The position numbers and the translations under genes were made by a program. Of a stretch of 64,000 nt of DNA, positions 853-47,394 are shown piece by piece. The notes under the pieces were generated by a model. It did no database searches and was not told where the DNA came from. It worked only from the letters and a program-made list of their open reading frames with translations. Position 1 is the first letter of the stretch; each line of letters starts with the position of its first letter. The DNA is from Candidatus Bathyarchaeota archaeon. GTDB taxonomy: Archaea; Thermoproteota; CALKCG01; B24; DRYS01. The stretch is from the NCBI GenBank assembly GCA_025058595.1, contig JANXEK010000004.1, positions 18,216-82,215 of the forward strand, written 5' to 3'.

Positions 853-910
853 CACTCCCCCTAATCGGTACAGAGCTCAACTAATAACGATAATTTAATG
901 ATAGCTAAAT

Positions 911-931
911 ATTTAATATCAGTTAAATATA
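911..931 (+). promoter_or_regulatory. TATA-box region for the inositol-phosphate synthase gene
   Basis: Two overlapping AT-rich boxes (tttaatat and ttaaatat) lie 20-40 bp upstream of the two candidate starts (TTG 945, ATG 951). This is the spacing expected for an archaeal promoter with a leaderless or nearly leaderless transcript. On the opposite strand, ttaaatta near 889-896 is a plausible TATA box for the divergent GH4 gene. This is pattern reading only. Confidence 0.5.
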
Positions 932-950
932 GGTATAGTTTGAGTTGGAT

Positions 951-2054
951 ATGGGTGAGATTAGGGTGGGTATCGTAGGGGTGGGTAACGCTGCTTCGCT
1001 CCTAGTACAAAGCATATATTACTATAGGAGGATCAAACATCTCGATCGCATACCAGGTGTACTATTCCAGGTTTTAGGAGGTTATAGTATAGGCGATATA
1101 AACTTCGTATCTGCTTTCGATGTTAGTAGACGTAAGGTTGGCTTAGATCTTAGCGAAGCTATATTCGAGAAACCTAACGTTACACCTAAGTTCGTAGATG
1201 TACCTAAGCTCTCGGTAGAAGTTCGTAGGGGACCTATACTCGACGGTGTAGCCGAGCATATGCGTAACGTTTTCGATGTAGAGTTTAACGGATGCGACCC
1301 ATCGCTAGATGATATAGCTGGGATCCTAGAGGATACCGGTACAGAGGTGTTAGTCAACCTCCTCCCCGTCGGGAGTAGAAACGCATCCCTATTCTACGCA
1401 GAGGCATGCGTTAAAGCAGGGGTAGCTTTCGTGAACGCTATACCTGTATTCATAGCTAGCGATCCTACATGGGGTGAAAGGTTTCGTAGAGCAGGTATAC
1501 CGCTTCTAGGCGACGATGTCAAGGGGCAGATAGGCGCGACCATACTTCACCGTTCGATCGTACACCTACTTCATATGAGGGGTGTAGAGGTAGAAGAGAC
1601 CTATCAACTGAATATAGGTGGTAATACTGATTTCATGAATATGATCGTCGAAGATAGGTTACACGATAAACGTGTAAGTAAGACTAGAGCGGTAACAAGT
1701 ATCCTACCATACGGAGATAGGCTTGAATCTGAGGGTAGGGTGAGGATAGGTCCGAGCGATTATATACCCTTCCTCGGTAATACCAAGGTATGCTATATAT
1801 ACGTTAAGGGTAGAGGCTACGTAGATCTCCCGGTTGAGATCGAGGTTAAACTTAAGGTCGATGATAAGTCTATGATAGCAGGTATCTTGGTAGACGCTAT
1901 AAGGGTTGCTAAGCTTGCAGTCGATAGAGGGTTTGGAGGCGTTATAAAGAGTGCATCTGCATATTTCTTTAAGCATCCACCGGTTCAGATCGGAAGCGAT
2001 GAAGAAGCCTATAGACTGCTACTAAGGTTTATAGAATATGGAGAGGATATGTAG
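951..2054 (+). CDS. ino1: myo-Inositol-1-phosphate synthase (archaeal type)
   Basis: Converts glucose-6-phosphate to 1L-myo-inositol-1-phosphate with NAD; in archaea this feeds inositol phospholipids and, in many hyperthermophiles, di-myo-inositol phosphate. About 367 residues, usual for the archaeal form. It starts with a Rossmann loop GIVGVGNAAS, has the family's GGNTDF segment near residue 225, and a lysine-rich central region around DDVKGQIGAT that belongs to the active site in this family. The ORF track begins at TTG 945; I prefer ATG 951, which sits about 25 bp after the nearer TATA box, but both are possible. It converges with the MFS gene, the two stops being one base apart. Confidence 0.9.
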   Translation: MGEIRVGIVGVGNAASLLVQSIYYYRRIKHLDRIPGVLFQVLGGYSIGDINFVSAFDVSRRKVGLDLSEAIFEKPNVTPKFVDVPKLSVEVRRGPILDGVAEHMRNVFDVEFNGCDPSLDDIAGILEDTGTEVLVNLLPVGSRNASLFYAEACVKAGVAFVNAIPVFIASDPTWGERFRRAGIPLLGDDVKGQIGATILHRSIVHLLHMRGVEVEETYQLNIGGNTDFMNMIVEDRLHDKRVSKTRAVTSILPYGDRLESEGRVRIGPSDYIPFLGNTKVCYIYVKGRGYVDLPVEIEVKLKVDDKSMIAGILVDAIRVAKLAVDRGFGGVIKSASAYFFKHPPVQIGSDEEAYRLLLRFIEYGEDM

Positions 2055-2055
2055 C

Positions 2056-3225
2056 TTAGACGTAGCTCCCACCTATACTATAGGAGAGTAGCATCGATGC
2101 TATCGTTTGGAGAGATAGCGTATAGGCTACTACTATAGGTAGCGGTATACCGTAGTCTAGCATGAACCCATAGATTACGCCTGATACTAGGAAGCCGACT
2201 CCATATAGGGTGTTGAATATCCCATACCCTGTTCCTCTATACTCTATAGGCGTCATCGTAGCTACGGCTGCACGGTAGATAGATTCCTGCATACCGTATA
2301 CGAATCCGTATATTATCGATGCGAATATTATCGAGTAGGCTTCTCCGGTGAATACTAGGATCGAAGGTATAGCGGAAGCTATTATCGGTAGGTATAGTAT
2401 CCTGAGACCGATTCTATCGTAGAGTACACCTGATAGGATAGCCGACGGTGCATCTACAGCTTGTATAGCCAGATAGATTAAGGGTATAATCCATTCATCT
2501 AGGAAGACATCTGATGCCCTATAGAGTATTAAGCTAGCCGGGATAAACCCTAGGGTGTTAGCTAAGATCGTAGAGGAGTATAGCCAGAATCTTATGCTTA
2601 AACTCGAAGGCTTAAACGATATAGATCCATTCCTTCTAGCAGATTCCATAGGTCCTATACTCCTATACGTATAGATTAGCGTAGCTATCAAAGCTATGTA
2701 TGGTATGGTTAGAACTATGAACGCATACTCGTATACGCTTCCACTGTAGAGCACTACTATAGATACGATTAGAGGACCTATGATTGCTCCTATCTGATCT
2801 AGGAATTCATGTATACCGAACGCCTTACCTGCACCTACACCTCTAGACACCATAGAGATTATCGTATCCCTACCGGGAGTCCTCAAAGCTTTACCCACCC
2901 TCTCCGTTACGGTTAAAGCTACGGCTATAGGCCAACACCATGCTATCGATAACAGCGGTATGGATGCTATCAGACTGTAGCCTAAGAAGGTTAGACCCCA
3001 ATATCTACCGGTTACATCGACTAATAAACCTGATACTAGCCTTAGGCTTAAACCTATAGAATCTCCTAAACCTGTAGCTAAACCCGTTATATACGCGGAT
3101 GCTCCGAGGTGCTTTAGAAAGCTTGGTATCAACCCTCTAGCCCCTTCGTAGACTATATCGCCCATTAAACTTACGAGTCCTAAGAGGATTATAGCCCTAT
3201 AGCCTTTACTACATCTCTTCTGCAA
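2056..3225 (-). CDS. Major facilitator superfamily transporter
   Basis: A 389-residue polytopic membrane protein with about 12 hydrophobic segments in two halves. The loop after helix 2 carries a motif-A-like GLLVDVTGRYWG, and after helix 4 there is ERVGKALRTPGRD, close to the R-x-GK-x-(I/L)R-x-x-x-RD signature of an MFS branch common in archaea and bacteria. Substrate unknown. It is convergent with ino1, so an inositol link is possible but unsupported. Confidence 0.82.
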   Translation of the reverse strand: MQKRCSKGYRAIILLGLVSLMGDIVYEGARGLIPSFLKHLGASAYITGLATGLGDSIGLSLRLVSGLLVDVTGRYWGLTFLGYSLIASIPLLSIAWCWPIAVALTVTERVGKALRTPGRDTIISMVSRGVGAGKAFGIHEFLDQIGAIIGPLIVSIVVLYSGSVYEYAFIVLTIPYIALIATLIYTYRSIGPMESARRNGSISFKPSSLSIRFWLYSSTILANTLGFIPASLILYRASDVFLDEWIIPLIYLAIQAVDAPSAILSGVLYDRIGLRILYLPIIASAIPSILVFTGEAYSIIFASIIYGFVYGMQESIYRAAVATMTPIEYRGTGYGIFNTLYGVGFLVSGVIYGFMLDYGIPLPIVVAYTLSLQTIASMLLSYSIGGSYV

Positions 3226-3266
3226 TCCGCGAGATAGGTTCGAATAGTTACCCTATAAGCGTTTCC

Positions 3267-3680
3267 CTAAGGTATGTATCCATCGATATCTAGATGCGAA
3301 CGCTCCCTAAGGAATATGGTAGGTATACCTTTAGATCTAAGCTTCCTCCGAAGCGTTCTATCGTTAGTAGCTACGACCGCATCTAGATTAACAGCTGCTC
3401 TTAGTATAGATTCATCGGTATTCAACCCTCTCACCTCATCTAGATCTAGGATGGTACACTTCTCTTCTATCAACTTCAAGGCCAGCCTAGCTCCACGAGA
3501 ATTATCTCCTACACCGTCGGCTATACGTTTAACCTCCTCGACTATCTGCGGTAGGACTATAAACTCGACGTTTCTACAGAGTAGATCCTTCACGCATTCG
3601 AATATATCTATACCGAATTGGAACGGTAGTAGTAGGAAGTTTGAATCCAGTATTACCTTGATAGATACATCCATGTACAT
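3267..3680 (-). CDS. PIN-domain RNase, Fcf1/Utp24-like, in the aIF2-gamma operon
   Basis: A 137-residue single PIN domain. PIN nucleases bind Mg/Mn through conserved acidic residues: I see VILDSNF near the start, ADGVGDN with a following acidic segment, TDESILRAA near residue 89 and ATNDRTL near 104. The overall pattern and the position directly downstream of aIF2-gamma match the archaeal Fcf1-like group, related to the eukaryotic Utp24 endonuclease that matures 18S rRNA, so an rRNA-processing role is likely. Only three bases separate it from the upstream stop, so it is cotranscribed with eif2g. A toxin (VapC) role is unlikely because no antitoxin gene adjoins it. Confidence 0.85.
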   Translation of the reverse strand: MYMDVSIKVILDSNFLLLPFQFGIDIFECVKDLLCRNVEFIVLPQIVEEVKRIADGVGDNSRGARLALKLIEEKCTILDLDEVRGLNTDESILRAAVNLDAVVATNDRTLRRKLRSKGIPTIFLRERSHLDIDGYIP

Positions 3681-3683
3681 CCA

Positions 3684-4925
3684 CTACGCCTTAATTATCC
3701 CGTAACCGATAAGTCTCCATCTATCGGCTATACGTCTACTTATAGCTATCCTCTGATTCATAGGAGCACATACAGGCCTCCTCAGGTTGACGTGTAGTTC
3801 ATCTGATCTTACACTATCCACGACGCCCACCGTCAACGATGTACCTACGTTAAGTAGTAGAGTCTCCCCCTTAGATATGGATGATACACGGGTAGGCTCC
3901 GCTAACCCGACTACATACTCGAATAGCTTATACTCCACCGTGTACTCGCTCCATATCGGTGGCATCTGATCGGGGTATCCCACCATATTTCCAACCATAC
4001 CGTCCGCTTTAGTTAGATAGGGATCGAGCTTCGTAGCAACCCCGACCAACCCTCCGCATCTAGCCTCCTCTACGTTTAGAGACCCGTATCTTAAGCTTAC
4101 GATCTCGGTGGTTAAACTCCTATAGCTTCCATCAGGAGATCTAACCCCAGGTCTGATCTCTATATTATCCCCCACTCTAAGTCTACCTTGAATTATAGAT
4201 CCACCTATAACCCCGCCTCTAAGCTCCTGCACAGGTGTACCAGGTTTATTCACATCGAAGGATCTTACGACCGGCATCAAGGGAGGCTTATTCAGATCCC
4301 TCTTAGGTGTAGGTATATACCTCTCTATAGCTTCTAGTAGGTAGCCTATGTTAACCTTATGCTGAGCTGATATGGGTATTATAGGAACATCCACCACACC
4401 GTACTCCTCTAAAAACTTTCTTATCTCCCTATAGCTCTCCATGGCTCTATCTCTATCGACTAGATCTATCTTATTCTGTACGACGACTATATTCTCGACG
4501 CCTACGATCTTTAGAGCCATGAGATGCTCCCTGGTTTGAGGTTGCGGGCACTTCTCATCCGCGGCTATAACTAGGAGCGCTCCATCCATAACGGCTGCTC
4601 CAGCTAGCATCGTAGCCATAAGGATCTCATGTCCGGGAGCATCTACGAAGCTTACAGTTCTTACAAGCTCAGTCTCAGAGCCGCATAGATTGCAGATAGG
4701 TTTATTCGTATACCTATACGGTGAGCTACACCTACCACACCTATATATACTCATATCTGCGTAGCCTAGCTTTATCGTGATCCCCCTCCTAAGCTCCTCA
4801 CTATGCCTAGCAGTCCATACACCTGTGAGAGCCTCCACTAGGGTTGTCTTCCCATGATCTACATGTCCGGCTGTACCTATGTTACATTCAGGTATCAGTC
4901 TAGAGTCTACTTGCATATCCACCAT
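3684..4925 (-). CDS. eif2g: Translation initiation factor aIF2, gamma subunit
   Basis: The GTPase subunit that, with aIF2-alpha and beta, delivers Met-tRNAi to the small ribosomal subunit. The 413 residues hold every expected mark: G1 [12 protein letters not shown] near residue 17, a four-cysteine zinc knuckle (CGRC ... CNLC, residues 62-78), G3 DAPGHE, G4 VQNKIDLV and G5 PISAQ, followed by two beta-barrel domains. Family length. It is the middle gene of S6e - eif2g - PIN. The ATG at 4925 fits the usual N-terminus just before the P-loop. Confidence 0.97.
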   Translation of the reverse strand: MVDMQVDSRLIPECNIGTAGHVDHGKTTLVEALTGVWTARHSEELRRGITIKLGYADMSIYRCGRCSSPYRYTNKPICNLCGSETELVRTVSFVDAPGHEILMATMLAGAAVMDGALLVIAADEKCPQPQTREHLMALKIVGVENIVVVQNKIDLVDRDRAMESYREIRKFLEEYGVVDVPIIPISAQHKVNIGYLLEAIERYIPTPKRDLNKPPLMPVVRSFDVNKPGTPVQELRGGVIGGSIIQGRLRVGDNIEIRPGVRSPDGSYRSLTTEIVSLRYGSLNVEEARCGGLVGVATKLDPYLTKADGMVGNMVGYPDQMPPIWSEYTVEYKLFEYVVGLAEPTRVSSISKGETLLLNVGTSLTVGVVDSVRSDELHVNLRRPVCAPMNQRIAISRRIADRWRLIGYGIIKA

Positions 4926-5025
4926 CAGTTTAGATTGTATACGGTAAGATATACCTTACCCCATCTTACTCGATATCCTACGCCAAAGCACCGGTAAAAG
5001 AGGCCTAAGCTATCATCGGGTCAGA

Positions 5026-5388
5026 TTAAACCGTAGAAGAAGACTTCTCGACAACCTTCACGTTAACCTGTACTATATCCGCGCTTATAGTATTACCTCT
5101 AACATAGACTCTTCTCCTCTCTCCGCTCCTTCTAGGTTTAATTCCCACTCCGTCGCTTAAGAGAAGCTTCTTCCTCCCAGGACCGTGGACATCAGGCCTC
5201 ATAGGGATTCCATCCTTATCAGATCCGCCTGTTACCATAAGCTTACAGCCTTTTAAACCTACTATACTCCCATCGAATACGCTCCCTATCCTTAAACCGT
5301 ATAGTAGCTTAGCTCTCGCCTCATCTAATTCTACAGTTTTAGCAGTACCTGTCTCAGGGTCAGATACTACGAGTTTAACGTTAGGCAT
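5026..5388 (-). CDS. rps6e: Ribosomal protein eS6 (S6e)
   Basis: A 120-residue small-subunit protein, the short archaeal form without the eukaryotic C-terminal phosphorylation tail. The segment KLMVTGGSDKDGIPMRPDV is the family signature, followed by a basic stretch (PRRSGERRRVYVRGNTIS). It lies between infB and eif2g in the same orientation, the usual archaeal order, with a 100-bp gap before eif2g that could hold an internal promoter. Confidence 0.96.
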   Translation of the reverse strand: MPNVKLVVSDPETGTAKTVELDEARAKLLYGLRIGSVFDGSIVGLKGCKLMVTGGSDKDGIPMRPDVHGPGRKKLLLSDGVGIKPRRSGERRRVYVRGNTISADIVQVNVKVVEKSSSTV

Positions 5389-5437
5389 AAACCTTCCCCC
5401 TATCTAGGATATCCATCTAGGATGCATCCTCTCCTGC

Positions 5438-7222
5438 TTAAATTTTTCCCTTCCTAATCTTAGCTATCTCAGCTATCAACTCTTTATCTTCAGCCGTAAG
5501 GTTTTCGCCAAGCTTCTCGTACAGTAAGAGCTCATCCCTCTCACTTAGGTATACGTATAAGGTATCCCCTTCATCGAAATGCCTACCTACCGTAGGTTTA
5601 TCTATAGATATAGCAACCTTCATACCAACCGTAGCTTCAGGTATAGGTTTACCCCTATCTTGCACCTGCTCTATCCGTCCTAGAAGCCTCCCATCGCTAC
5701 GCATAAGAGGTAATCCTGCTCTTATCCTACCAGCCAGTACCTCTACACCTACTATTGCCGGTTTACTCCTTCTGAAAACATATCCTTGCAACACTTTTAT
5801 CTTACCAGGCATAACTAGATCCTTTAACGTAAGCTTGGATAGCCTATCCCTCTCGGATGAAGCCCAATTCAGATAATCCTCTATGAGACGGTATATTATA
5901 TCGCTAGAAAATATAGGCGTTAAACCCATAGCCTCCTCCTCGGCTTCAGGTAGGATCTTAACATTGAAAGCTAGTATAACACCATACACCGGATCGCTAG
6001 CTCTACTAGCTTCAGCCTCTATAACATCCCTCCTAGATATAGGACCTACATCGGCTATCCTAACCGGTACGTTATTCCGTTTAAGCTCTGATATCAAAGC
6101 TTCTAGGGAACCTAACGTATCGGCTTTAACCACCACACCTATACGATCGGTTCTGATAAGTAGCTCCTTAACCTCCTCTACGACGAGCTGCATATATTCA
6201 TCGACAGATCTACCGGGCTCGACTACGTATAGAGGTGCACCCGGTATAGCCTCCTCCAAACCTGGTGCAGCTATCTTCACACCAGCTGCAGCTGTAACTT
6301 CTTCAACCTGCTCGAAACCTCCGGCAGGCATCCTTATCTCCTGCAAAGGCTTCGGCTGAAATAAAGCCCTGATCCTAGTCAATATAGGAGCCGATCTACC
6401 CATGGTTACTATCAGATCGCCCTTCCTAAGAACCCCATCGTATATTACGACGTTAACCGTATGCCCTAATCCGGGCTCCTCTAAAACCTCCAGTATGCTA
6501 CCCTTCGCAGCTCCAGATGCTACGGTAAGCCTACTACGCATATACTGCTGGGTTATACCGATTAGAACGGCTAGAAGCTCAGGTATACCCTCACCCGTCT
6601 TAGCTGATACAGGTATTACGGCGACCTCCCTCCTGAAATCTCTTATCCTATCGAACCTATTAGAGTTGAATCCGTAGGCGGCGAGCCCGGATATTATATT
6701 CGATAGCTTAACCTCGAGCTCCGCTATCACGTATGAATTCTGTCTTCTAAGAGATTCTAGAAACATAGCCCCAGGGTTAGGTTTCCATCCATCTATCAGA
6801 TCTATCTTGTTAGCGGCTACTAGGAACGGAACCCTCCTAGATCTTAGAAGCTCTATGGACTCGACTGTTTGAGGTTCAACCCCCTTCATAACGTCTACGA
6901 CGAGTATCGCTATATCGGCTATCGAACCACCTCTACGTCTAAGGTTAGCGAAGGAATGGTGTCCAGGTGTATCTATGATGAGGAGGCCTGGAACATCTAT
7001 CCTCCACCTATAGGCTTCCAGTAGGGGTTTACAGATAGCTTCGATCGTATCGGCTGGGAAGAAGCTTGCACCTATATGCTGGGTTTAGGAGACTCCATAG
7101 CAGAGCCTCATCCCCCCAGCTTCCCTCATAGCTATAGCTGTCCCCCTAATCTTATCGAGTAAGGTTGTCTTCCCATGATCTACATGTCCCAGTACGACGA
7201 CTATAGGGCTCCTTATACTCAA
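5438..7222 (-). CDS. infB: Translation initiation factor aIF5B, interrupted by a 24-nt BHB intron
   Basis: GTPase that promotes ribosomal subunit joining. The ORF track shows only 483 residues from an internal methionine, but the frame continues upstream to a TTG at 7222 preceded by a strong Shine-Dalgarno (GGTGAGGAG). The 5' part encodes the G1 loop [10 protein letters not shown], then REAGGM, then eight extra codons ending in TAA, then TQHIGAS and [10 protein letters not shown] (G3); G4 NKIDLI follows. Without the 24 nt the product is 586 residues, the normal aIF5B length, with all GTPase and C-terminal domains. The insertion keeps frame but carries a stop, so the full protein needs splicing (or readthrough). 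The fold is described in the intron entry. Confidence 0.92.
7085..7108 (-). other. Candidate archaeal pre-mRNA intron (24 nt) with canonical bulge-helix-bulge
   Basis: In the infB transcript I can pair GCUGGG (7120-7115) with CCCAGC (7083-7078), GGGA (7114-7111) with UCCU (7090-7087, one G-U), and GGCUC (7107-7103) with GAGUC (7095-7091, one G-U), leaving a 7-nt loop and exactly two 3-nt bulges, UGA and AAA, on opposite strands. That is the canonical substrate of the archaeal tRNA splicing endonuclease, which cuts after the second bulge base. Cuts at UG^A and AA^A remove exactly 24 nt including the in-frame TAA and join GGM to TQHIGA, rebuilding the conserved switch region. Splicing is inferred; the fold and the frame restoration are directly visible. 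Confidence 0.85.
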
Positions 7223-7392
7223 TTCTCCTCACCTTATGATCGGTAAACCTAGGTCTCAAAGAAGGTTATAAATAGTTCGATTAGAAACCTAGACTAACTG
7301 AAAACCCTTAATTACACGAGCTCAGATATCTGTATCTCTAGCGTATCGAGTAAGGGTACCGTTAACGCTTTGTAACTAAGAGATGGTGTATT

Positions 7393-10104
7393 ATGAGTGG
7401 TATCTATGAAGTCGAGGTATTCAGGAGTGAAGGGTTCAAACGTAGAAGATGTCCTTCATGCGGTAGATTCTTCTGGAGTGTAGATGAAGACCAGGTATAC
7501 TGCGGGGATCAGCCTTGCGTAGAGTATAGCTTCATAGGCAACCCTATAACCGGTGTTAGGTATAGGCTTGAGGATATGCGTGAAGCGTTTCTATCGTTCT
7601 TCGAAAGGAACGGTCATAGAAGGGTTAGAAGATACCCGGTCGTCGCTAGGTGGAGGGAGGATGTATACCTGGTAGGGGCATCTATATATGCCTTCCAACC
7701 CTGGGTTACAGAGGGTATAGCTCCACCGCCAGAAAATCCTCTAACCATAAGTCAGCCATGTATAAGGCTAACGGATCTACCGAAGGTTGGACGTACGGGT
7801 AGACATTTAACGAGCTTCGAGATGATGGCGCATCATGCATTCAATACAAAGGATGAAACCGTATACTGGAACGATGAAACCGTAGAATACTGCTATAGGT
7901 TCTACAAGGATGTATTGAAGGTTCCGGCTGAACGTATAACGTTCATAGAGGATTGGTGGTCTGGCGGGGGTAATGCTGGTGAAGACTTCGAGGTGGTTAT
8001 CGGTGGAGCCGAGGTCGCCACCCTAGTATTCATGCACTACAGGGATAGAGATGGCGCTCTAGAAGAGATGCCTGTAAAGGTTGTAGATACAGGTTACGGT
8101 TTAGAGAGGAATGTATGGGTATGTTTAGGATCGCCCACCATCTACGATGCTGTACATAGAGAGTTTATCGATAGAGTTACAGTCGAAGCAGGTATACCTA
8201 AAGTCGACGAACGAATACTTGTAGAGATATCGAAAGCTTCAGGTAGGATGGATGCTATATCCGATGCCGAATACCAGGTTGCTGATAGACTAGGGGTTTC
8301 GGTCGAAGAGCTTAGACAGGTTATGAAGCCATATACGGCTGTATACGCGTTAGCCGATCATACGTATACGATCGCTTGGATGCTATGCGATGGGATCGTT
8401 CCGTCGAATACGGGTGCGGGATATCTAGCTAGACTCTTGATAAGGAGGGGTCTAAGATTCCTTAGAGAAATTGGGTTGGAGACCCCTCTATCCGACTTCA
8501 TAGATTTCCAGATATCGCGTATAGCTAGAAGCTATCCTGAAGTTGGAGGTTCTAGGAGTAAAGTATTGGATATGGTTGATTTAGAGTCTGAAAGATACTC
8601 TAAGACCTTAAGCGAAGCTCCTAAGGTTATAGAGCGTACGATCGCGAGAGAGGGTAGAAAACATAAGCTTACCCTAACCGATCTGGTAGAGTTGTACGAT
8701 TCATACGGTATACCACCGGAAGTTTCCGAGGAATACGCATCTAAGCTAGGCGTAGAAGTCGAGAAGGGAGATTTCTACACTCTACTAGCTTCTAGGCATA
8801 GTAAACCTGAAGAGGTTAGGATGGAGGAGAAGCCTGTCTCGAAGCTTATACACGATCTACCTCCGACACGTACCCTATACTATGAAGATCCAGATATGCT
8901 TACGTTCAAAGCTAAGGTTTTAAGAGCTGTGGATCGGTACATTATACTAGATTCTACATGCTTCTACCCTGAAGGTGGAGGAGCTATATCGGATACAGGT
9001 GTTATAAGATGGGTTAACGGGGAACTCCGCGTGGTGGGTGTAGAGAAGGTAGACGGAATCATAGTTCATATAGTGGAAGGCCCTCTTCCGCCTGTAGGTG
9101 TAGAGGTGGAGGGTTATATCGATAGGGAGCGTAGGAAGCATATTAGAAGGCATCATACTGCTACGCATATACTTATAGGAGCTGCTAGGAGGCTTCTCGG
9201 CTCTCACGTATGGCAGATGGGTTCTCTGAAATCTATAGATTACGCTAGACTCGATATATCGCATTATAAGAGGTTATCGTTAGATGAGCTTAAAGCTTTA
9301 GAGAAGATGGCTAACGATGTAGTTGGAGAGGCTAGACGGGTTAACGTGTACTGGATGCCTAGGGATAAAGCTGAATCTATGTATGGATTCACATTGTATC
9401 AGGGGGGTGTCTTCCCAGGTAAGATTCTAAGGGTTGTCGAGATAGAGGGTTGGGATGCAGAAGCATGCGGAGGTATACATTGCAGTAGTACCTCTGAAGT
9501 TGGCTTCGTAAAGATTATCGGAGCTGAACGTATACAGGATGGCGTCGAAAGGATACATTTCACAGCGGGTGAAGCTTCGCTTAGATACGTATGGAGTATA
9601 GAGGATACTATAAGGAATCTATCAGATATACTTTCAGCCCCTATAGATAAACTCGTACCTACGGTAGATAACCTTTTAGGAGAGGTTAAGAGTCTACGTA
9701 GGGAGATTAGGAAGCTTAAGGAGAGGATGGCCGAATCGATAGCTACAGGTTACAGGAGCTTCGAGCTTAAAGGTGGAGTTAAGGTTAGCTTAGCATCTAT
9801 GGAGGGTGACCCTGAAACCGTTATCAAGGTTGGCGAGAAGATGCTAGGTAGGGATCCTTCCATCATAGCTATCTTCCTTATACCTGGAGATGTCTATCGG
9901 CTTGTAGTCATGGCTGGGGATGACGCTATAGCTAGAGGATTCGATGCAGGTAGGGTAGCGTCTATCATAGCTAGAGCTACTGGAGGGGTAGGCGGTGGGA
10001 AAGCTAGGCTAGGTCAAGGAGGTAAGCTTAATCCTACCGAAGCTGAGAAGCTTCTATCAGATATCGATAGGGTTAGATCAATCTTAGAATCCATAGGCAG
10101 CTGA
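7393..10104 (+). CDS. alaS: Alanyl-tRNA synthetase (archaeal type)
   Basis: Charges tRNA-Ala and hydrolyses mischarged Ser/Gly-tRNA. The 903 residues begin with the archaea-specific zinc-finger-like N-terminus (CPSCGRFFW ... CGDQPC), then the class II catalytic core, an editing domain with the HHTATH metal motif near residue 586 and CGGIHC near 690, a coiled coil (LRREIRKLKERM) and a glycine-rich C-Ala domain (ATGGVGGGKARLGQGG). Full length. It reads away from infB across a 170-bp promoter region. Confidence 0.97.
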   Translation: MSGIYEVEVFRSEGFKRRRCPSCGRFFWSVDEDQVYCGDQPCVEYSFIGNPITGVRYRLEDMREAFLSFFERNGHRRVRRYPVVARWREDVYLVGASIYAFQPWVTEGIAPPPENPLTISQPCIRLTDLPKVGRTGRHLTSFEMMAHHAFNTKDETVYWNDETVEYCYRFYKDVLKVPAERITFIEDWWSGGGNAGEDFEVVIGGAEVATLVFMHYRDRDGALEEMPVKVVDTGYGLERNVWVCLGSPTIYDAVHREFIDRVTVEAGIPKVDERILVEISKASGRMDAISDAEYQVADRLGVSVEELRQVMKPYTAVYALADHTYTIAWMLCDGIVPSNTGAGYLARLLIRRGLRFLREIGLETPLSDFIDFQISRIARSYPEVGGSRSKVLDMVDLESERYSKTLSEAPKVIERTIAREGRKHKLTLTDLVELYDSYGIPPEVSEEYASKLGVEVEKGDFYTLLASRHSKPEEVRMEEKPVSKLIHDLPPTRTLYYEDPDMLTFKAKVLRAVDRYIILDSTCFYPEGGGAISDTGVIRWVNGELRVVGVEKVDGIIVHIVEGPLPPVGVEVEGYIDRERRKHIRRHHTATHILIGAARRLLGSHVWQMGSLKSIDYARLDISHYKRLSLDELKALEKMANDVVGEARRVNVYWMPRDKAESMYGFTLYQGGVFPGKILRVVEIEGWDAEACGGIHCSSTSEVGFVKIIGAERIQDGVERIHFTAGEASLRYVWSIEDTIRNLSDILSAPIDKLVPTVDNLLGEVKSLRREIRKLKERMAESIATGYRSFELKGGVKVSLASMEGDPETVIKVGEKMLGRDPSIIAIFLIPGDVYRLVVMAGDDAIARGFDAGRVASIIARATGGVGGGKARLGQGGKLNPTEAEKLLSDIDRVRSILESIGS

Positions 10105-39986: not shown

Positions 39987-40274
39987 CTACTTCACCACTT
40001 TAAGCTTTCCATATCTACCTACGTTAAGCTGAAGCTTTCCCCTAAAATAGTTTGTATAACCATTCTCCACCCTAACCCTATCCCCGACGCTAACCATATC
40101 GATAGTATCACCCCATAGTACAAGCTGTATAGAGCCTGAATCATCCTTAAGTTCTGCCGTAGCTACAGAAGTTGCACCGTATCTTGTGTTAACAGTTTTA
40201 GGCTCTGTTATACTCGTTATGAAGCCTTCAACCGTAACTCTCCTCATACCTTGTTTTACATCTGCTATCCTCAT
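39987..40274 (-). CDS. OB-fold single-stranded nucleic-acid-binding protein (RPA/SSB-like)
   Basis: 95 residues forming one OB fold: VTVEGFITSITEPKTVNTRYG, then TAELKDDSGSIQLVLWGDTIDMV and VGDRVRVENGYTNYFRGKLQLNVG, the typical strand pattern of archaeal RPA/SSB domains. It probably binds ssDNA or RNA. It lies 10 bp upstream of the eL13 start region, so both are likely cotranscribed. Confidence 0.85.
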   Translation of the reverse strand: MRIADVKQGMRRVTVEGFITSITEPKTVNTRYGATSVATAELKDDSGSIQLVLWGDTIDMVSVGDRVRVENGYTNYFRGKLQLNVGRYGKLKVVK

Positions 40275-40398: not shown

Positions 40399-41349
40399 AT
40401 GAATCTGATTAAGCTTAAGCTATCGATGCTAGGCACCGTAGCGGTGATAATAGGCTTATCGACATTATTCCTAGCTTTAGTGCTATCTCTAGCTGGTGTA
40501 GATATACTCCTATTACCTATATTCGTCGTAGCGTTCAACATAGTTCAATGGCTTATAGCGCCATACCTGATCGACGCTCTCTACAGGGTTAGAGAGCTAC
40601 CTGAATCTGAGCTTCCATGGCTTCATAGATCTATCGAGAAGCTCAGCATAGCTAGCAATATAAAGAAGCCTAAGGTTATGTTAGCTCAGATACCTATCCC
40701 CAACGCTTTCGCCTATGGTTCACCTATAGCTGGAACCCGCGTCGCCGTGACGGGTAAACTTCTAGAGATACTCGAACCAGAGGAGGTTGAAGCTGTCATA
40801 GGCCATGAGCTAGGGCACCTCAAGCATAGAGATGTACAGGTTATGATGATAGCCTCGGTGCTTCCAGCTATATTCTACTATATAGGCTACAGCTTCATGC
40901 TGTCGTACTACTATAGAGGATCTTATGGGAGGGATCGTGGAGGTAACGGTCTCGCAGCCCTCATAGGTATACTATCGATATTCATGTACTACATCCTATC
41001 GCTACTAGTGTTAGGCTTAAGCCGTCTGAGAGAGTACTATGCCGACAGACATAGCGCTTCGGTAGTAGAGTATGGAGCATCCAAACTTGCATCGGCTCTA
41101 GCTAAACTCGTAACATACACTAGTAGGATACCTCGCGAGAAAATGGAGAACTTCCTAAGCTTTCGTGCGCTATTCATAACAGATCCGGGTAGAGCTCATA
41201 GCGATGCCGAAGAGCTGAAGTATGGTAGAAGCTTAGCCGAATCGATCGCTTCGAGAGAAATTACATGGGTCGATAGACTCTTAGAGATATTCTCGACCCA
41301 TCCCAACATAGTTAAGAGAATTAGAGCACTCCTACAGATAGAAAGTTAA
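40399..41349 (+). CDS. htpX: HtpX-like membrane zinc metalloprotease (M48)
   Basis: 316 residues: two N-terminal membrane helices (near 10-30 and 35-55), a PIPNAFAYGS segment, the zinc motif VIGHELGHLKHRD near residue 130, two more membrane helices, and the third ligand region LREYYADRHSA near 213. The family degrades damaged membrane proteins, with the active site in the cytoplasm. The last four bases overlap the opposing herA stop. Confidence 0.93.
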   Translation: MNLIKLKLSMLGTVAVIIGLSTLFLALVLSLAGVDILLLPIFVVAFNIVQWLIAPYLIDALYRVRELPESELPWLHRSIEKLSIASNIKKPKVMLAQIPIPNAFAYGSPIAGTRVAVTGKLLEILEPEEVEAVIGHELGHLKHRDVQVMMIASVLPAIFYYIGYSFMLSYYYRGSYGRDRGGNGLAALIGILSIFMYYILSLLVLGLSRLREYYADRHSASVVEYGASKLASALAKLVTYTSRIPREKMENFLSFRALFITDPGRAHSDAEELKYGRSLAESIASREITWVDRLLEIFSTHPNIVKRIRALLQIES

Positions 41350-43940
41350 CTTTCTCTATCCAGTATTTCGACAACGGGTTTACCCATATTGATCCATGCA
41401 TCCCTAGCCGTAACTTTCGCTTTCCTAGGATACTCTTCTACTTCTACTTCTACCGCGACCGGGAAGGGTATCAGCGAGCCTAAACCCCAGAATAGCGCTT
41501 CATGATCTGCTAACCCTGGTAGGTAGTCTGACAGTCTCTCGTTACCGTACTCAGTATACTTGAGTATAGCTTCCTGATCGTTCCCGCTCATAAGCCTAAA
41601 GCATGCTATCGTATTACACTGCGATATTATCGATTTAGATATATACGCCGGCCTCTGCGTTATGAATATGAACCCTACGTTATATCCTCCAGCTTGACTT
41701 ACAGCTTCTATCAGCTCTTTATCTACCCCGATCTTCTCAGGATTTCCAACCTCTATCTTTAACCCCTTCTCAGGTGTAAAGTATTGCGCCTCTTCTATGA
41801 CGAATATAACCGCGAAACCGCCTTCATCTCTCCTACTTAAAGCATAATCTACAATCCTAGATACTATATGACGTACGGCTATATGCTGGGCATCTATATC
41901 TGTATCCACCGATAGATCTACAATAACGATAGGATTACTCCTACATATATCCACTACATCGATATACCTATACTCCTCATCCAGGAAATCCCCCCTCCTC
42001 TCAAGAGCCCAACGTATAAGATTCAAACTATGGCTACCACTACGACCACTTAACATCGGAGCTATACGGTTAACTTCTCTAAGTAGGGATGCTCGATTCA
42101 CATCCTCCCCTCTAGCTTTCAACGATTCTACCGCTTCAGTTATTAGACGCCCTGCACTAGATGCAGGATCTAGATTGAGTCTCGACGCTATAATCTTACC
42201 TTTAAGCATAGATGATTTAGGTAGGAACATCTTATACGGGTATACCTTCCCGCCAAACTTAGTTAAAGCCGTATACTCGCATCTACGATCTAATACTATG
42301 AATCTAGGTTGAGGCTCCATCCTAGAGGCTTTCGCTATAAGGCTAACTACGAAGCTTGACTTACCGCTACGAGTATTGTGACACGAAACACCCCCCATCC
42401 CGGCTACAAAATTCTCGCATCCAGGAACCGATAGATCGTATACAAACTTATACTCGTATCCTACGGTATCTATCCTAGTTATCCTAGCTAGAGCTAGATC
42501 TCCTACAGAGGAATTTCTATCCTGATATCCGCTAGCTATAAGCTTGAGATAGAATATATCTGATACCAGTCTCTTATCATCTACTAAGCCCAAGCTTAAG
42601 GATTTAAGTAAAGGTTCTAGGAAAGCTTCTAGGATCTCATGTTTCGAGTTGAATATGAATCTAGGTATACGTATACCTGGATCTATAGATTTTAAAGCTT
42701 CGAACAATAGCTTCAACACTTTACTCTTCAAAATGACTTCTACATACTCTCGGTGTTCCTCGATAAATACATCTGCGATAGACCTGATGCTGGATACTAG
42801 GGATAGTATCCCTTCATCGTATATCGATCGTGGTAGCTTCAACGAGACACCATCTGGATGATTACACCCGAATAGGATGTAATACGCTATTAGACGAGCG
42901 ATATCCTTATCTACGATTAGTTTAGGTAGTATATGGTTATCTTCGATCGACACGTATCTATCAGCATCAGTTACATCTTCAGACCTTAGCATACTAGCTA
43001 TATTTAACTCCTCCATGCATGATGCTGGTCTAGGTATGAATGACGGTACTAGTATACTATCACCAGGCTTCAAGCTACCAGCTTCTACGGCTTCCACCCT
43101 AGAATTATTTATAGTGTAAACTGAATGCGACGGTGTAACTGTTACCGAACGTCCATCCTCAAGCTCCATCCTAATCATAGATCCATCGTATCTATGCCTT
43201 ATGAGATTTCTCACCGGGTGCCATCTTAACTCTAGCTTTTCCGGATCGAAGCTTGGAACGTAGATATCGTCGCTTAACTCAACTTCCCCTTCGTCTTCAT
43301 CCATAAAGAATCGATCTACGAATCTACCTATCTCCTCTATCCATATCTCCCCCTTATACATGTATATGATAGGCTCGTAGTAGGCTATACTCATACCTGC
43401 TACGAACATATGTCCCTTAGCTATAGAGTTCAGATCTAGGTATATCGGGACGTCGGTTCCCTTCAACCTACCTATACGTATCGGAAAGCATTCCTTCTTA
43501 CCTCCCCTCATAATCTCCATATAGAACTCCTGCAACTCATACGGCTCAGGCTGGTAAACTGGATCCCATGTCCCAGGGGCACATTCGAGTCTAACCCACT
43601 TTCCATCACTACGTATATAGCCTAATGCTTCTGTGAAAGCTACATCGTACTCTAACCCTTTTCCATACTGAGCCTTCTCCCCCTTCTTACCAGCTATAGG
43701 TCCGAATCCGCCTAACCCCATCTCAGGATTATAGGGGGTAACCTTGAAAACCCTAAGGAGGACCGGTGTGAAATTATCTCTGCTTAACGGATGCTTGATG
43801 AAATAGTATCCGTTAACTACGACTTTATACCCTTCCTTAACCACGAACGGTATTATTCTCTGATCACATCCGGATAGTATGTAACCTATCTCTATCAAAG
43901 CTCCCAGCTTCCCTTGTTGGTAGTATCTGTTAAAGCCCAA
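41346..43940 (-). CDS. herA: DNA helicase/translocase HerA with an in-frame intein in its P-loop
   Basis: 864 residues as translated. The N-terminus is a HAS-barrel-like domain (LIEIGYILSG...); the ATPase core contains MFVAGM at residues 178-183, then a 339-residue intein, then TRSGKSSFVV from 523, so the P-loop G-M-T-R-S-G-K-S is split. After splicing about 525 residues remain, the usual HerA size, with VIFVIEEAQYFTPE (Walker B) and FITQRPAYISK (sensor). HerA pumps DNA with NurA nuclease in end resection. The TTG 43940 start overlaps nurA by 46 bp. Confidence 0.88.
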   Translation of the reverse strand: MGFNRYYQQGKLGALIEIGYILSGCDQRIIPFVVKEGYKVVVNGYYFIKHPLSRDNFTPVLLRVFKVTPYNPEMGLGGFGPIAGKKGEKAQYGKGLEYDVAFTEALGYIRSDGKWVRLECAPGTWDPVYQPEPYELQEFYMEIMRGGKKECFPIRIGRLKGTDVPIYLDLNSIAKGHMFVAGMSIAYYEPIIYMYKGEIWIEEIGRFVDRFFMDEDEGEVELSDDIYVPSFDPEKLELRWHPVRNLIRHRYDGSMIRMELEDGRSVTVTPSHSVYTINNSRVEAVEAGSLKPGDSILVPSFIPRPASCMEELNIASMLRSEDVTDADRYVSIEDNHILPKLIVDKDIARLIAYYILFGCNHPDGVSLKLPRSIYDEGILSLVSSIRSIADVFIEEHREYVEVILKSKVLKLLFEALKSIDPGIRIPRFIFNSKHEILEAFLEPLLKSLSLGLVDDKRLVSDIFYLKLIASGYQDRNSSVGDLALARITRIDTVGYEYKFVYDLSVPGCENFVAGMGGVSCHNTRSGKSSFVVSLIAKASRMEPQPRFIVLDRRCEYTALTKFGGKVYPYKMFLPKSSMLKGKIIASRLNLDPASSAGRLITEAVESLKARGEDVNRASLLREVNRIAPMLSGRSGSHSLNLIRWALERRGDFLDEEYRYIDVVDICRSNPIVIVDLSVDTDIDAQHIAVRHIVSRIVDYALSRRDEGGFAVIFVIEEAQYFTPEKGLKIEVGNPEKIGVDKELIEAVSQAGGYNVGFIFITQRPAYISKSIISQCNTIACFRLMSGNDQEAILKYTEYGNERLSDYLPGLADHEALFWGLGSLIPFPVAVEVEVEEYPRKAKVTARDAWINMGKPVVEILDRES
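42375..43391 (-). mobile_element. HerA P-loop intein (339 aa) with degenerate homing-endonuclease domain
   Basis: Starts with Ser (SIAYYEPIIYMYKGEIWIEE, block A), has block B GSMIRMELEDGRSVTVTPSH, block F YKFVYDLSVPGCENFVAG and ends GGVSCHN followed by Thr, the +1 nucleophile. The middle carries two segments that look like eroded LAGLIDADG helices (LIAYYILFGCNHPDG and ILEAFLEPLLKSLSLGL) lacking the expected Asp pairs, so the endonuclease is probably inactive while splicing is likely intact. Its length keeps the host frame. Confidence 0.85.
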
Positions 43941-45016
43941 TACTCCCCATGCTGGAGTAGGAGGAAGTTTAACTCTTCAGATGTAAGCTCGCCCCTCTTA
44001 ACAAGCTCGACAGCTTTAGCGAAGAAATTCAAGGTATGGATATTAGAGAACGGTTTACTTATTCTCGTGTACCTGTCAGCCTCGTGTATAGGGTATGGTA
44101 TACCCATAACGTTCGCAGAAGACACTATAAGGGAGACAGCTTCCTCGAGCATATCTAGGTTGAAGCTGGGGATCTCTATCCTAAAAGGTATAACCCAAGT
44201 CTTAACATAGCTACTATAAACATCCGATACCTCTATACCAAGCTCTTCAGCTATCTTAACGTAGGATTCTGAAACCTTATTCTTCATAGGGAATGGCTCC
44301 GTATATTCATTCTCATCCATTATCAAGCTTAGGAATATCGCGTCCCTAAACTTCTCGTAACCGAGAAGTCTACCATAATAATTCATACAGCTACGTTTAA
44401 CAAAGCCTAGAATCAGGACGTCGTTCTCCTCGCATACCCTCAACAGTTCTAACGCTTGTATAACGGTATAGGTGAAGTCGTATCTATACTCACTAGAATC
44501 TGAATTGTTAGGATAGAGTCTAGGATTCAAAACGATACCACCATCTATTATTAGGTAATCTGGATTCCAAAGCTCTACAGCCTTCTTAGCTACGTAGTAT
44601 TCTAGGGCCATATGAAGGAGGTTCTCCCTTCTTTCAGGTTCATCATCTACAGCCCATATATCCGGCGGTCCTGATACGCATAGTGGTTCACCTTTAAACT
44701 CCATCCCCTCAAAAAGTACGGCGACTGCATTGTATATCGGCACGTAAGCAAACCTGAAATGTACACCGTTATGTCCTGCATCAACTCCGACTATACGTCT
44801 AGAAGCTAGTATCCCTCTATCTACTATGCAACGTCTAGTCCTTATAATACCCCTCAGATTTTCAGCTACATGCCTACACTCCTTTACATACCCTCTGAAT
44901 CTCTCTATCAAAAGATCGGTACCCTTCTCTATCATATTCTGATATAGCTCAGAGTAAACTAGCTCATAACCTGTATCATGGAGGGTCTTCGGATGCATTT
45001 TATTGTTGGCTAACAT
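43895..45016 (-). CDS. nurA: NurA-domain nuclease
   Basis: 373 residues. NurA is the 5'-3' nuclease that works with HerA at DNA ends. RRIVGVDAGHNGVHFRF near residue 70 holds the first metal Asp, DYLIIDGGIVLNPR near 155 a second acidic site, and LLQHGEYWALT near the C-terminus the conserved His. Overlaps herA by 46 bp, so the pair is coexpressed; mre11 and rad50, often next to them in archaea, are not in this window. Confidence 0.8.
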   Translation of the reverse strand: MLANNKMHPKTLHDTGYELVYSELYQNMIEKGTDLLIERFRGYVKECRHVAENLRGIIRTRRCIVDRGILASRRIVGVDAGHNGVHFRFAYVPIYNAVAVLFEGMEFKGEPLCVSGPPDIWAVDDEPERRENLLHMALEYYVAKKAVELWNPDYLIIDGGIVLNPRLYPNNSDSSEYRYDFTYTVIQALELLRVCEENDVLILGFVKRSCMNYYGRLLGYEKFRDAIFLSLIMDENEYTEPFPMKNKVSESYVKIAEELGIEVSDVYSSYVKTWVIPFRIEIPSFNLDMLEEAVSLIVSSANVMGIPYPIHEADRYTRISKPFSNIHTLNFFAKAVELVKRGELTSEELNFLLLQHGEYWALTDTTNKGSWEL

Positions 45017-45074
45017 TTTTAAACACCAAACACACCTAATTACTATTAAGGTATAGGTTAGGGGAGACTTATAA

Positions 45075-45518
45075 ATGTTGTTGAATGTTCAACAATCAAA
45101 AAATCAAGCAGAGGGGGGATACGGAAAGGATGACAGAATACATATCCGTTTAAAATTCGGTGATCTTGAGGTTGATGTTGAATGTAGACAAGAACAACTC
45201 AAAGATATCATAGATACATTCCTATCTAGTTTGAGGGAGAAGGGCCTACCTACGATATCTCCCACCGTGAGTACTAGCTATACTAGGGGTGGTGAGCCTA
45301 AAACATGTCGTGACATTATATTGAGTCTATGGAGGAACGGCTGGTTCTCCACCAGTAGAAGCCTCTCAGAAGTTGATGAAGAGATGTCTAGGATGGGATA
45401 TCATTATAATAGGAGTGCTATAGCTCATAGTCTCGCCGATCTTGTGAGGGAGGGTATCCTATCTAGAGAGGGGCGGAAAGGTAGCTATAGATATTTACAG
45501 AAGAGACCACCCATATAG
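45075..45518 (+). CDS. Winged-helix protein with N-terminal GDL module (paralogue 1)
   Basis: 147 residues. The N-terminus has IRLKFGDLEVDVECRQEQLKDIIDTFL, a beta-beta-alpha pattern shared with the proteins at 46383 and 46900. The C-terminus is a winged helix (ILSLWRNGWFSTSRSLSEVDEEM ... SAIAHSLADLVREGILSREG). Probably a DNA-binding regulator or chromatin-type protein; no named family recognised. Divergent from nurA, sharing a 58-bp promoter region. Confidence 0.65.
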   Translation: MLLNVQQSKNQAEGGYGKDDRIHIRLKFGDLEVDVECRQEQLKDIIDTFLSSLREKGLPTISPTVSTSYTRGGEPKTCRDIILSLWRNGWFSTSRSLSEVDEEMSRMGYHYNRSAIAHSLADLVREGILSREGRKGSYRYLQKRPPI

Positions 45519-45546
45519 TACTAATCTATGTATGGTGTAGAGTATC

Positions 45547-46251
45547 CTACTCTTCAGATTCACTCGTCTTCCATCCAGCGAATCCTAGTATGTATACTAT
45601 CTTATCGAAGAGTAATGCAAGCTTCTCCATATCTGTATTCTGATCTATTATGAATACGAGTTGTAACTGAAGGTTAACCCCGGCTTTCGTCACTGGTAAT
45701 TCTCTCCTGATAGCTTCTCTCCTCGGCTTCTTCTTTTCCCTAACCTGTTCTACAGGTTTAAGCTTCTTAGTTTCCACTCCTTCCCATTCGAATGCGTAGT
45801 TTAACATATCTAGGAAGCTCTGTATACCTACGAGATCTACTTTCGCATCACCGACTATCGACGGTATTTCAGCCATTAACCTCCGCCGATCAAATCCCTC
45901 TGCTTCTATCCTCTCTACGATGCTCATCACTACTTCATTTTTCATAAGTAAGTTCTGTAGAGCTCTCTTCGCAACATCCGAGTCTGGGTCTATCCTATAA
46001 GCTGCTACAAACTTGATAGCATCCTCTGCTAGCTTATATTTCTTAGGAGTATCTTTAGATTCCTCTATAAACCCCCAAGATTTGAAGAATGCATTATTAC
46101 GGCTTACATTCTTCTCATCTACCCCAGCTCTCTCTGCTACATCTTTCACGGAGATATACTCTCTATCAGCCCCAGCGTTGAGATAGCTTACAAGAACCTG
46201 GCAGAGCCTCTCCCAGCTTAACCTACGCGGTAGTTTAAATTCCTGCATCAA
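45547..46251 (-). CDS. Winged-helix protein, DUF5343-like
   Basis: 234 residues. N-terminal winged helix (ISVKDVAERAGVDEKNVSRNNAFFKSWGFIEE), a helical middle, a basic linker (REKKKPRREAIRRE), and a C-terminal beta-alpha unit (GVNLQLQLVFIIDQNTDMEKLALLFDKI) of the DUF5343 type. Function unknown. It faces the three GDL-module proteins; the intergenic space toward 46383 may hold a shared control region. Confidence 0.62.
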   Translation of the reverse strand: MMQEFKLPRRLSWERLCQVLVSYLNAGADREYISVKDVAERAGVDEKNVSRNNAFFKSWGFIEESKDTPKKYKLAEDAIKFVAAYRIDPDSDVAKRALQNLLMKNEVVMSIVERIEAEGFDRRRLMAEIPSIVGDAKVDLVGIQSFLDMLNYAFEWEGVETKKLKPVEQVREKKKPRREAIRRELPVTKAGVNLQLQLVFIIDQNTDMEKLALLFDKIVYILGFAGWKTSESEE

Positions 46252-46382
46252 CCTCCAGTCTAAGTATGAGGCTTAGCTGCATGTAAATATTTTGTGCTTC
46301 ACGATAACGAATGTTATACTGATTTTCGTTAATTTTTAAAAGTAGTCTACTTCATATTCATATATCAAGAGGTGCTGTCCTC

Positions 46383-46916
46383 ATGTCGCAGCATACATCA
46401 GATTCTACACGGGAGATAGAGGTTATAGTTAAGAAGGGTGATCTACAGATCGAGTTCAAAGGGTCGATCGATGATGTTATCAGATGTCTTCTTAAATTCA
46501 TAAGCGAGATACATCCTACATGGTTTCTCGCCTCGAAGCTTGCACTTAAAGTGGATTTAGTCGAAGTATTCGAAGCTATGACGGGTATATTGGCAGTAGG
46601 CTCTGAAGGACCCACCGTGATAGTCGATAGGAGTAAATTAACGGATATAGAATCTATATGGTTTTCTTTAGCTAAAGCTTGGATAGCCTCTCGGATAGGG
46701 TTATCCGATGATGATACGGTAACGAGTAGGGATATACAGAGAGATACAGGAGTTAAACCTGGTACCGTATCGGCTCGTCTAAGCGAGCTAGCGAATCAAG
46801 GTTATCTCGATAAACCTAAGAGGGGTGCGTATAGGCTTACATCTCTAGGGTTGAAAAAGCTTATCGAGGATATCATACCTAACATTAAGAGTAGAATAAG
46901 TGTTGGCCGAGGATAA
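46383..46916 (+). CDS. Winged-helix protein with N-terminal GDL module (paralogue 2)
   Basis: 177 residues. IEVIVKKGDLQIEFKGSIDDVIRCLLKFISEI is the same module as in paralogue 1; a hydrophobic linker follows, then a winged helix (RDIQRDTGVKPGTVSARLSELANQGYLDKPKRG). ATG 46383 is preceded by GAGGTG at 8-bp spacing and a TATA-like box near 46333-46342. The downstream paralogue overlaps its last 17 bases, so the two are an operon. Confidence 0.7.
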   Translation: MSQHTSDSTREIEVIVKKGDLQIEFKGSIDDVIRCLLKFISEIHPTWFLASKLALKVDLVEVFEAMTGILAVGSEGPTVIVDRSKLTDIESIWFSLAKAWIASRIGLSDDDTVTSRDIQRDTGVKPGTVSARLSELANQGYLDKPKRGAYRLTSLGLKKLIEDIIPNIKSRISVGRG

Positions 46917-47394
46917 GCTCTACGTACATATAGAGTATGGGGATTTGAAAGCCGACTTTACGGGATCAGCCGATGAGGTATTAAGATCTATAGTAAGATT
47001 CCTATCTAAGATCCTACCTAGCTTGAGGATCGTAGAGGAGCTTATCTATAAGCCTAGCCTTGAAGGGTTAGCCGAAGCTTTGAAAGATATAGTCAAGGTA
47101 AGCGAAGGCGTACCCATGCTATCCACTCAGACTAATTTCGCGACGCATAGCCTTGTATTGATAGGTTTAGCCGCGAAGTATCTATCGTTCAATATAGGTT
47201 TATCTGAGGATGAATGTATGGATGCTAGGGAGCTATCGATATTCACAGGTAAATCTGAGAAAACTGTGAGAAACATCTTACCGAAACTTCTAGAGAAAGG
47301 TTTGATAACGAGGACGGAGAAGGGTAGATATGCTATCACCATACTAGGGTTGAAGAAGGTTGAAGAGGAAATAGTCGGCAGGGTTAGCCAGTAG
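46900..47394 (+). CDS. Winged-helix protein with N-terminal GDL module (paralogue 3)
   Basis: 164 residues. YVHIEYGDLKADFTGSADEVLRSIVRFLSKILP is very close to paralogue 2 over the first 35 residues, and the C-terminus is again a winged helix (ELSIFTGKSEKTVRNILPKLLEKGLITRTEKG). The start is GTG 46900 or TTG 46903, inside the end of paralogue 2, so translation is coupled. Probably the two proteins act together. Confidence 0.7.
   Translation: MLAEDKLYVHIEYGDLKADFTGSADEVLRSIVRFLSKILPSLRIVEELIYKPSLEGLAEALKDIVKVSEGVPMLSTQTNFATHSLVLIGLAAKYLSFNIGLSEDECMDARELSIFTGKSEKTVRNILPKLLEKGLITRTEKGRYAITILGLKKVEEEIVGRVSQ

Follow-up and report, generated by a model that had tools for sequence, protein, structure and literature searches.

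Control of DNA end resection is poorly understood in archaea, and the regulators known for it come from Sulfolobus, where TFB3 coregulates the HerA operon (PMC9905601) and Csa3a, a winged helix-turn-helix (wHTH) regulator, is reported to bind the nurA and herA promoters (PMC12977600). Thermophilic archaea are also known to carry nurA-herA-mre11-rad50 operons (PMC2288612, PMC7690668), with the same NurA and HerA families as the locus described here. For Bathyarchaeia and Nitrososphaeria, our searches of the open-licence literature turned up no wHTH family described as linked to nurA-herA. Our analysis of 64,000 nt from a Candidatus Bathyarchaeota archaeon (contig JANXEK010000004.1, positions 18,216 to 82,215; hereafter the window) points to such a family, made up of P1, P2 and P3 and their relatives X and P1'. 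This gene set is real, undescribed and broadly conserved, it is very likely tied functionally to HerA-NurA, and the P1/P2/P3 family probably consists of dedicated regulators of these enzymes.

In the window, herA (41346-43940, minus strand; PF01935) and nurA (43895-45016, minus strand; PF09376, E=1.6e-14) lie directly left of P1 (45075-45518, plus strand), which is divergent from nurA across a gap of 58 nt and encodes 147 aa, with an N-terminal beta-beta-alpha module of the GDL type followed by a wHTH. Two further GDL-module wHTH paralogues form a pair on the plus strand, led by P2 (46383-46916, 177 aa) and continued by P3 (46900-47394, 164 aa, GTG start), with an overlap of 17 nt between the two ORFs. 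The initial annotation had the coordinates of all three ORFs, the P2/P3 overlap and the adjacency to herA-nurA right. It had also placed a DUF5343-like wHTH protein between P1 and P2 on the other strand; this protein, Q (45547-46251, minus strand), is there and contains a wHTH, but neither Q nor three homologues matched DUF5343 in Pfam. Q is an occasional partner, present in 5 of 61 genomes and in 5/5 of them adjoining P2/P3 or X(-P2-P3). The window's genome, a Bathyarchaeota MAG, has a single NurA match, with a Rad50 hook match at another site, and its closest named relative is Candidatus Bathyarchaeota JZ_bin_32, whose P1 shows 84% identity. The herA gene contains an intein (Pfam Intein_splicing, residues 226-522), whose splicing would rebuild the Walker A motif GMTRSGKS, and HerA ORFs in related loci are also oversized (836 aa in L034 and 1051 aa in L032). 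A small OB-fold-like, SSB-like protein is encoded near herA-nurA (39987-40274), as is also the case in the sister genome (L034).

With only the N-terminal segments compared, profile-profile alignment joined the P1 family to the P2/P3 family over 38 columns (probability 96.6%, E=6e-10). At full length, P2/P3 aligned with the fourth paralogue, X (E=5e-20), and the N-terminal segment of X alone gave a weaker match (E=1.5e-4). AlphaFold2 models show a beta-beta-alpha unit and then a wHTH both in P3 (mean pLDDT 90.5) and in P1 (mean pLDDT 76.2, with the wHTH mostly above 90), so that alignment and models together bear out the earlier proposal of an N-terminal module common to P1, P2 and P3. A C-terminal winged helix had been proposed for all three as well, and the fold is indeed seen in the C-terminal part by AlphaFold2 and Foldseek, but these domains are only loosely alike, the P1 subtype being different from that of P2/P3. 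Meaningful matches of P1-P3 (Pfam, NCBIfam, PHROGs, PADLOC, PDB sequences, Foldseek) were confined to the wHTH, and the only family match above its cut-off was that of P2 to HTH_24, again over the wHTH; P1 also resembled replication terminator protein (E=0.0017), below the cut-off. The N-terminal module of the window proteins had no covering match in Pfam, NCBIfam, PHROG or PDB, which agrees with the first impression that it belongs to no named family, and that of aligned relatives had none in Pfam or PDB. Foldseek searches of PDB (with the P3 and P1 models) and of viral structures (with P3) returned wHTH matches only and no full-length relative. The module might serve pairing of paralogues or sensing. 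The best-conserved part of P1 is its recognition helix (consensus Y-D-R-T-A-V-A-H-x-L-x-D-L-V-R), with a mean majority identity of 0.84 compared with 0.52 for the N-terminal module and 0.54 for the recognition helix of P2/P3, a level of conservation that fits a conserved DNA site.

Of 299 genomes in the phylum, about 90 encode P2/P3-type proteins (E<1e-27), most often in two neighbouring copies, and about 76 encode P1 (E<1e-37), always as a single copy. According to the titles of the records matched in a scan of genome contigs with a P1 alignment, members of the P1 family come from Bathyarchaeota, Nitrososphaerales, Conexivisphaerales and other Thaumarchaeota, and no strong match was found in genomes of families f5, f6, f7, f12, f14, f20, f22 and f27, among others. 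Paralogues X and P1' (the fourth and fifth) adjoin P2/P3 in many relatives and are absent from the window. Two overlapping ORFs, one P1'-like and one X-like, are found at 5860-6823 of L027, where a start-site artefact is possible.

The initial annotation had suggested a regulatory or DNA-protection system, and the latter, taken as a mobile anti-virus defence cluster, has some points in its favour: HerA-like ATPases are found among defence systems, the HerA of the window is recognised by PADLOC HerA models, and defence roles have been proposed for HerA-NurA (PMC12977600). Against it stand the fixed layout and small fixed gene set, with a single-copy P1 kept over many families, and the lack of any match in viral contigs (searched with P1), phage records (with P3) or plasmids (with P1). 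The PADLOC matches of P1-P3 are likewise limited to the generic wHTH, and we regard the defence reading as very unlikely. No known anti-phage defence system was recognised at the locus, as no PADLOC match went beyond a generic wHTH or ATPase.

The linkage to nurA-herA is striking in its regularity. Co-occurrence with herA and nurA outside this genome, on which the initial annotation had staked its proposal beforehand, was found throughout: the nearest family gene 5' of nurA was a GDL-family member in 101/101 nurA-bearing loci from Bathyarchaeia and Nitrososphaeria relatives, a set that includes many related Bathyarchaeia and does not represent 101 independent events. At 92 of the 101 loci P1 is divergent from nurA-herA and adjoins it with a short gap (92/92 when P1 loci with a readable 5' flank are counted), and at the nine loci without P1 it is X, P2/P3 or P1' that lies upstream of nurA-herA in the same direction. 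The two layouts are mutually exclusive, with 0/101 loci outside both, and at least four changes of layout map onto the HerA tree. In L055, the one long-flank P1 locus that lacks nurA, the assembly is broken by gaps at intervals of about 1.3 kb and has a run of Ns directly 5' of P1. L127 shows a distance of 502 nt to the nearest called family gene, since its NurA was called in two pieces. A further herA-nurA pair is seen in L147, L153 and L154, beside a gene starting ILAHGDCDGIC that has the look of a DHH-family phosphoesterase.

wHTH genes are common in archaea, and this is the sole point in favour of unrelated genes that merely neighbour a repair operon; that reading is refuted by the survey, with its family gene 5' of nurA at every locus and its two exclusive layouts, and is further opposed by the conserved, phased cis-element described below, which leaves it with next to no credibility. 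The same survey bears on another explanation, in which the paralogues belong physically to the HerA-NurA machine. As accessory wHTH subunits they would pair by way of the N-terminal module and bring HerA-NurA to DNA, load it there or hold it back, perhaps next to Mre11-Rad50 or in its place; the promoter element would then be a sign of simple autoregulation. The co-directional X-P2/P3-(P1')-nurA-herA operons are tight and overlapping (L026, L029, L030, L025, L036), the tight packing or overlap with nurA-herA in the nine loci suits a protein complex, and multiple paralogues are kept together. On the other hand, P1 is on the opposite strand in 92 loci, and P2/P3 lie apart from nurA in L122, L129 and L136.

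The phylogeny of HerA is relevant to both sides of this question. Most GDL-linked HerA proteins form one clade (lineage A; 35 rows, support 100/100), while HerA of the window and its order falls in a separate clade (lineage B, 100/100), which also includes a HerA of genome G023 encoded beside an Mre11-like gene. G023 holds both herA-nurA pairs side by side, in L029, where positions 2-7721 carry, in a row on one strand, the mre11-like gene, herA-nurA of lineage B, herA-nurA of lineage A and four GDL-family genes; this locus is possibly an intermediate of lineage exchange. P1 from the window's order sits within the rest of the P1 family, and HerA of this order falls in the other clade; we infer an exchange of herA-nurA beside a P1 set that stayed in place. 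When the HerA tree was tested for a single GDL-linked clade, constraining lineages A and B (and the Mre11-linked copy) to one group gave a p-AU of 0.051, which is borderline and no clear rejection, with long branches present; a constraint adding L022 instead gave p ~1e-91, but it also breaks a 100/100 clade and so carries little weight. That the wHTH set accompanies two different HerA lineages counts in favour of accessory subunits, though a tight complex could not easily accommodate a new HerA-NurA lineage, and overall we consider the subunit reading conceivable but doubtful. The proposed exchange of HerA-NurA lineages and the repeated changes of layout, with a family gene always 5' of nurA, suggest that the control element matters no less than the enzyme.

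The gap between P1 and nurA contains a TATA box and, 3 nt downstream, a TTGYKCA element, a combination found at 64 of 71 non-redundant loci compared with a mean of 0.46 and a maximum of 3 loci in dinucleotide shuffles. The TTG starts exactly 3 nt past the TATA core at 64 of 68 aligned loci, and is usually followed by YGCA and, about 20 nt further on, by a looser second half; the TTG itself is invariant in the 68 aligned regions, but the alignment is anchored on it. In the window, the perfect palindrome TTGTTGAATGTTCAACAA (45078-45095) is the candidate operator. At up to three mismatches it has one match in the window, compared with 0.06 expected, and in the whole genome this is the best match and the only perfect copy, the next best having two mismatches and lying elsewhere. 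Across other genomes, searches with strict patterns in 36 genomes gave 12 consensus-type matches (TATTTAA or TATATAA, then TTGYGCA), of which 12/12 fall on P1|nurA-herA loci, six of them in genomes whose P1|nurA locus had previously been unsampled (G199, G219, G258, G278, G282 and G294); matches with other TATA or half-site forms had no P1 or nurA nearby, and the strict patterns miss divergent lineages such as Nitrososphaera-like and Nitrosocaldus-like variants. A genome-wide regulon of the element was sought and not found, the element being essentially single-copy, with one per genome in most of the genomes tested.

The geometry in the window is less simple. The P1 ATG at 45075 overlaps the TATA-like TTATAAAT (45069-45076, plus strand), which occupies the same place as the conserved TATA of the other P1|nurA gaps, and TTG 45078 and TTG 45081 are the sole other in-frame starts ahead of the conserved module, so the start codon of P1 is uncertain here. 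Since the palindrome falls within P1 as annotated, just past its start, a simple order of TATA box, operator and start is uncertain as well, and either the true P1 start or the promoter of the window differs from that of other loci.

The element appears to belong to P1. In 13 genomes without P1 there were four element matches, of which 0/4 were at a known nurA-herA cluster, and the X-first promoters of P1-less loci instead carry TACGT-type words at 4.45 per 120 bp, compared with 0.4 after shuffling and 0.57 per 120 bp in P1-bearing promoters. Three or more such words were present in 8 of 9 nurA-linked P1-less loci. The palindromic element is thus absent at nurA where P1 is absent, with TACGT in its place, so it goes with P1 and not with nurA-herA. 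No element equally conserved was seen at the P2-P3 operon of P1-bearing genomes. Before P2 in the window (46305-46352) there is an inverted repeat, TAACGAA...TTCGTTA, together with the palindrome AAGTAGTCTACTT; the inverted repeat is partly kept in the sister genome, and AAGTAGTCTACTT, which is not kept there, was set aside.

Present just once in most of the genomes tested, the element could also be a unique chromosomal address of the dif or centromere kind, marked by the wHTH proteins for HerA acting as an FtsK-family pump, its promoter position being incidental. HerA does belong to the FtsK-HerA superfamily, FtsK itself is absent from archaea (PMC12977600), and the matches of P3, both by fold and by profile, include AspA, a wHTH protein that binds centromeres. 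However, the element is phased 3 nt from the TATA box in 64/68 loci, it is lost along with P1, and no recombinase gene adjoins it, all of which makes the chromosomal-address reading highly improbable.

A divergent gene pair with a conserved palindromic promoter site, the arrangement looked for in a local autoregulator, is thus found, and the regulatory suggestion of the initial annotation gains support: the divergent promoter is conserved, the palindrome is unique in the genome, and the cis-element switches with the gene layout. With reasonable though limited confidence, we propose from these sequence patterns that P1 acts locally, as a dedicated (auto)regulator of the promoter shared by P1 and nurA-herA, and that other paralogues fill this role where P1 is missing. 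The P1 winged helix would bind the palindrome that adjoins the TATA box of this promoter, and the conserved cis-element is in line with sequence-specific DNA binding by P1. The position of the element beside the TATA box suggests repression by blocking of the polymerase, which is usual for archaeal repressors. P1 would in this way limit its own transcription and probably that of nurA-herA, perhaps in a manner linked to a DNA-damage signal; without P1, X/P2/P3-type paralogues take the promoter-proximal place, in one operon with nurA-herA and with a different element. Three or four paralogues are many for one promoter, which counts against the regulator reading. A broader and rather unlikely scheme would make the GDL-wHTH paralogues both promoter regulators and subunits of a second, Mre11-Rad50-independent HerA-NurA machine: they might bind DNA ends or stalled forks, hand the DNA to HerA-NurA and leave their unique operator when engaged, which would turn their own operon on and amount to an archaeal damage-response circuit in Bathyarchaeia and Nitrososphaeria.

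The family and its mostly once-per-genome candidate operator offer a testable regulator and site in Bathyarchaeia and Nitrososphaeria. Among described systems, Csa3a and TFB3 of Sulfolobus resemble it in that a HerA operon is under dedicated control, in the case of Csa3a by a wHTH regulator. Csa3 carries a CARF ligand domain. It differs from the GDL family in being CRISPR-linked, whereas the GDL family has another N-terminal module and a gene fixed beside nurA-herA. Identity with Csa3 or other CARF-wHTH proteins was rejected, as Csa3 models match P3 in the wHTH only and the P3 model shows two strands followed by helices in its N-terminal half, which is no CARF Rossmann-like fold. The P1 wHTH shares its fold with the DNA-binding domains of BlaI/MecI, Fur and RosR, which lack the N-terminal module, the match of P1 being confined to the wHTH. 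Within the P1 family, Pfam matches are most often to Penicillinase_R (15/56). Membership of this BlaI/MecI family was likewise rejected, with 13.4 bits for P1 and 15.5 bits for P3 against a Pfam cut-off of 22.6. AspA of plasmid pNOB8 (4rs8, 5k5q) is similar as an archaeal wHTH DNA binder (TM-score 0.64-0.73 over the AspA length), but it is a single domain without the N-terminal module, and a partition function is not indicated for the GDL family. Finally, several GDL-family genomes also hold a nurA-herA-mre11-rad50 operon, from which the GDL-linked system differs in that its HerA lineage A is a separate clade (100/100) and lies beside a wHTH set and not beside mre11-rad50; the GDL family provides a sequence handle for a separate HerA-NurA lineage without mre11-rad50 linkage.
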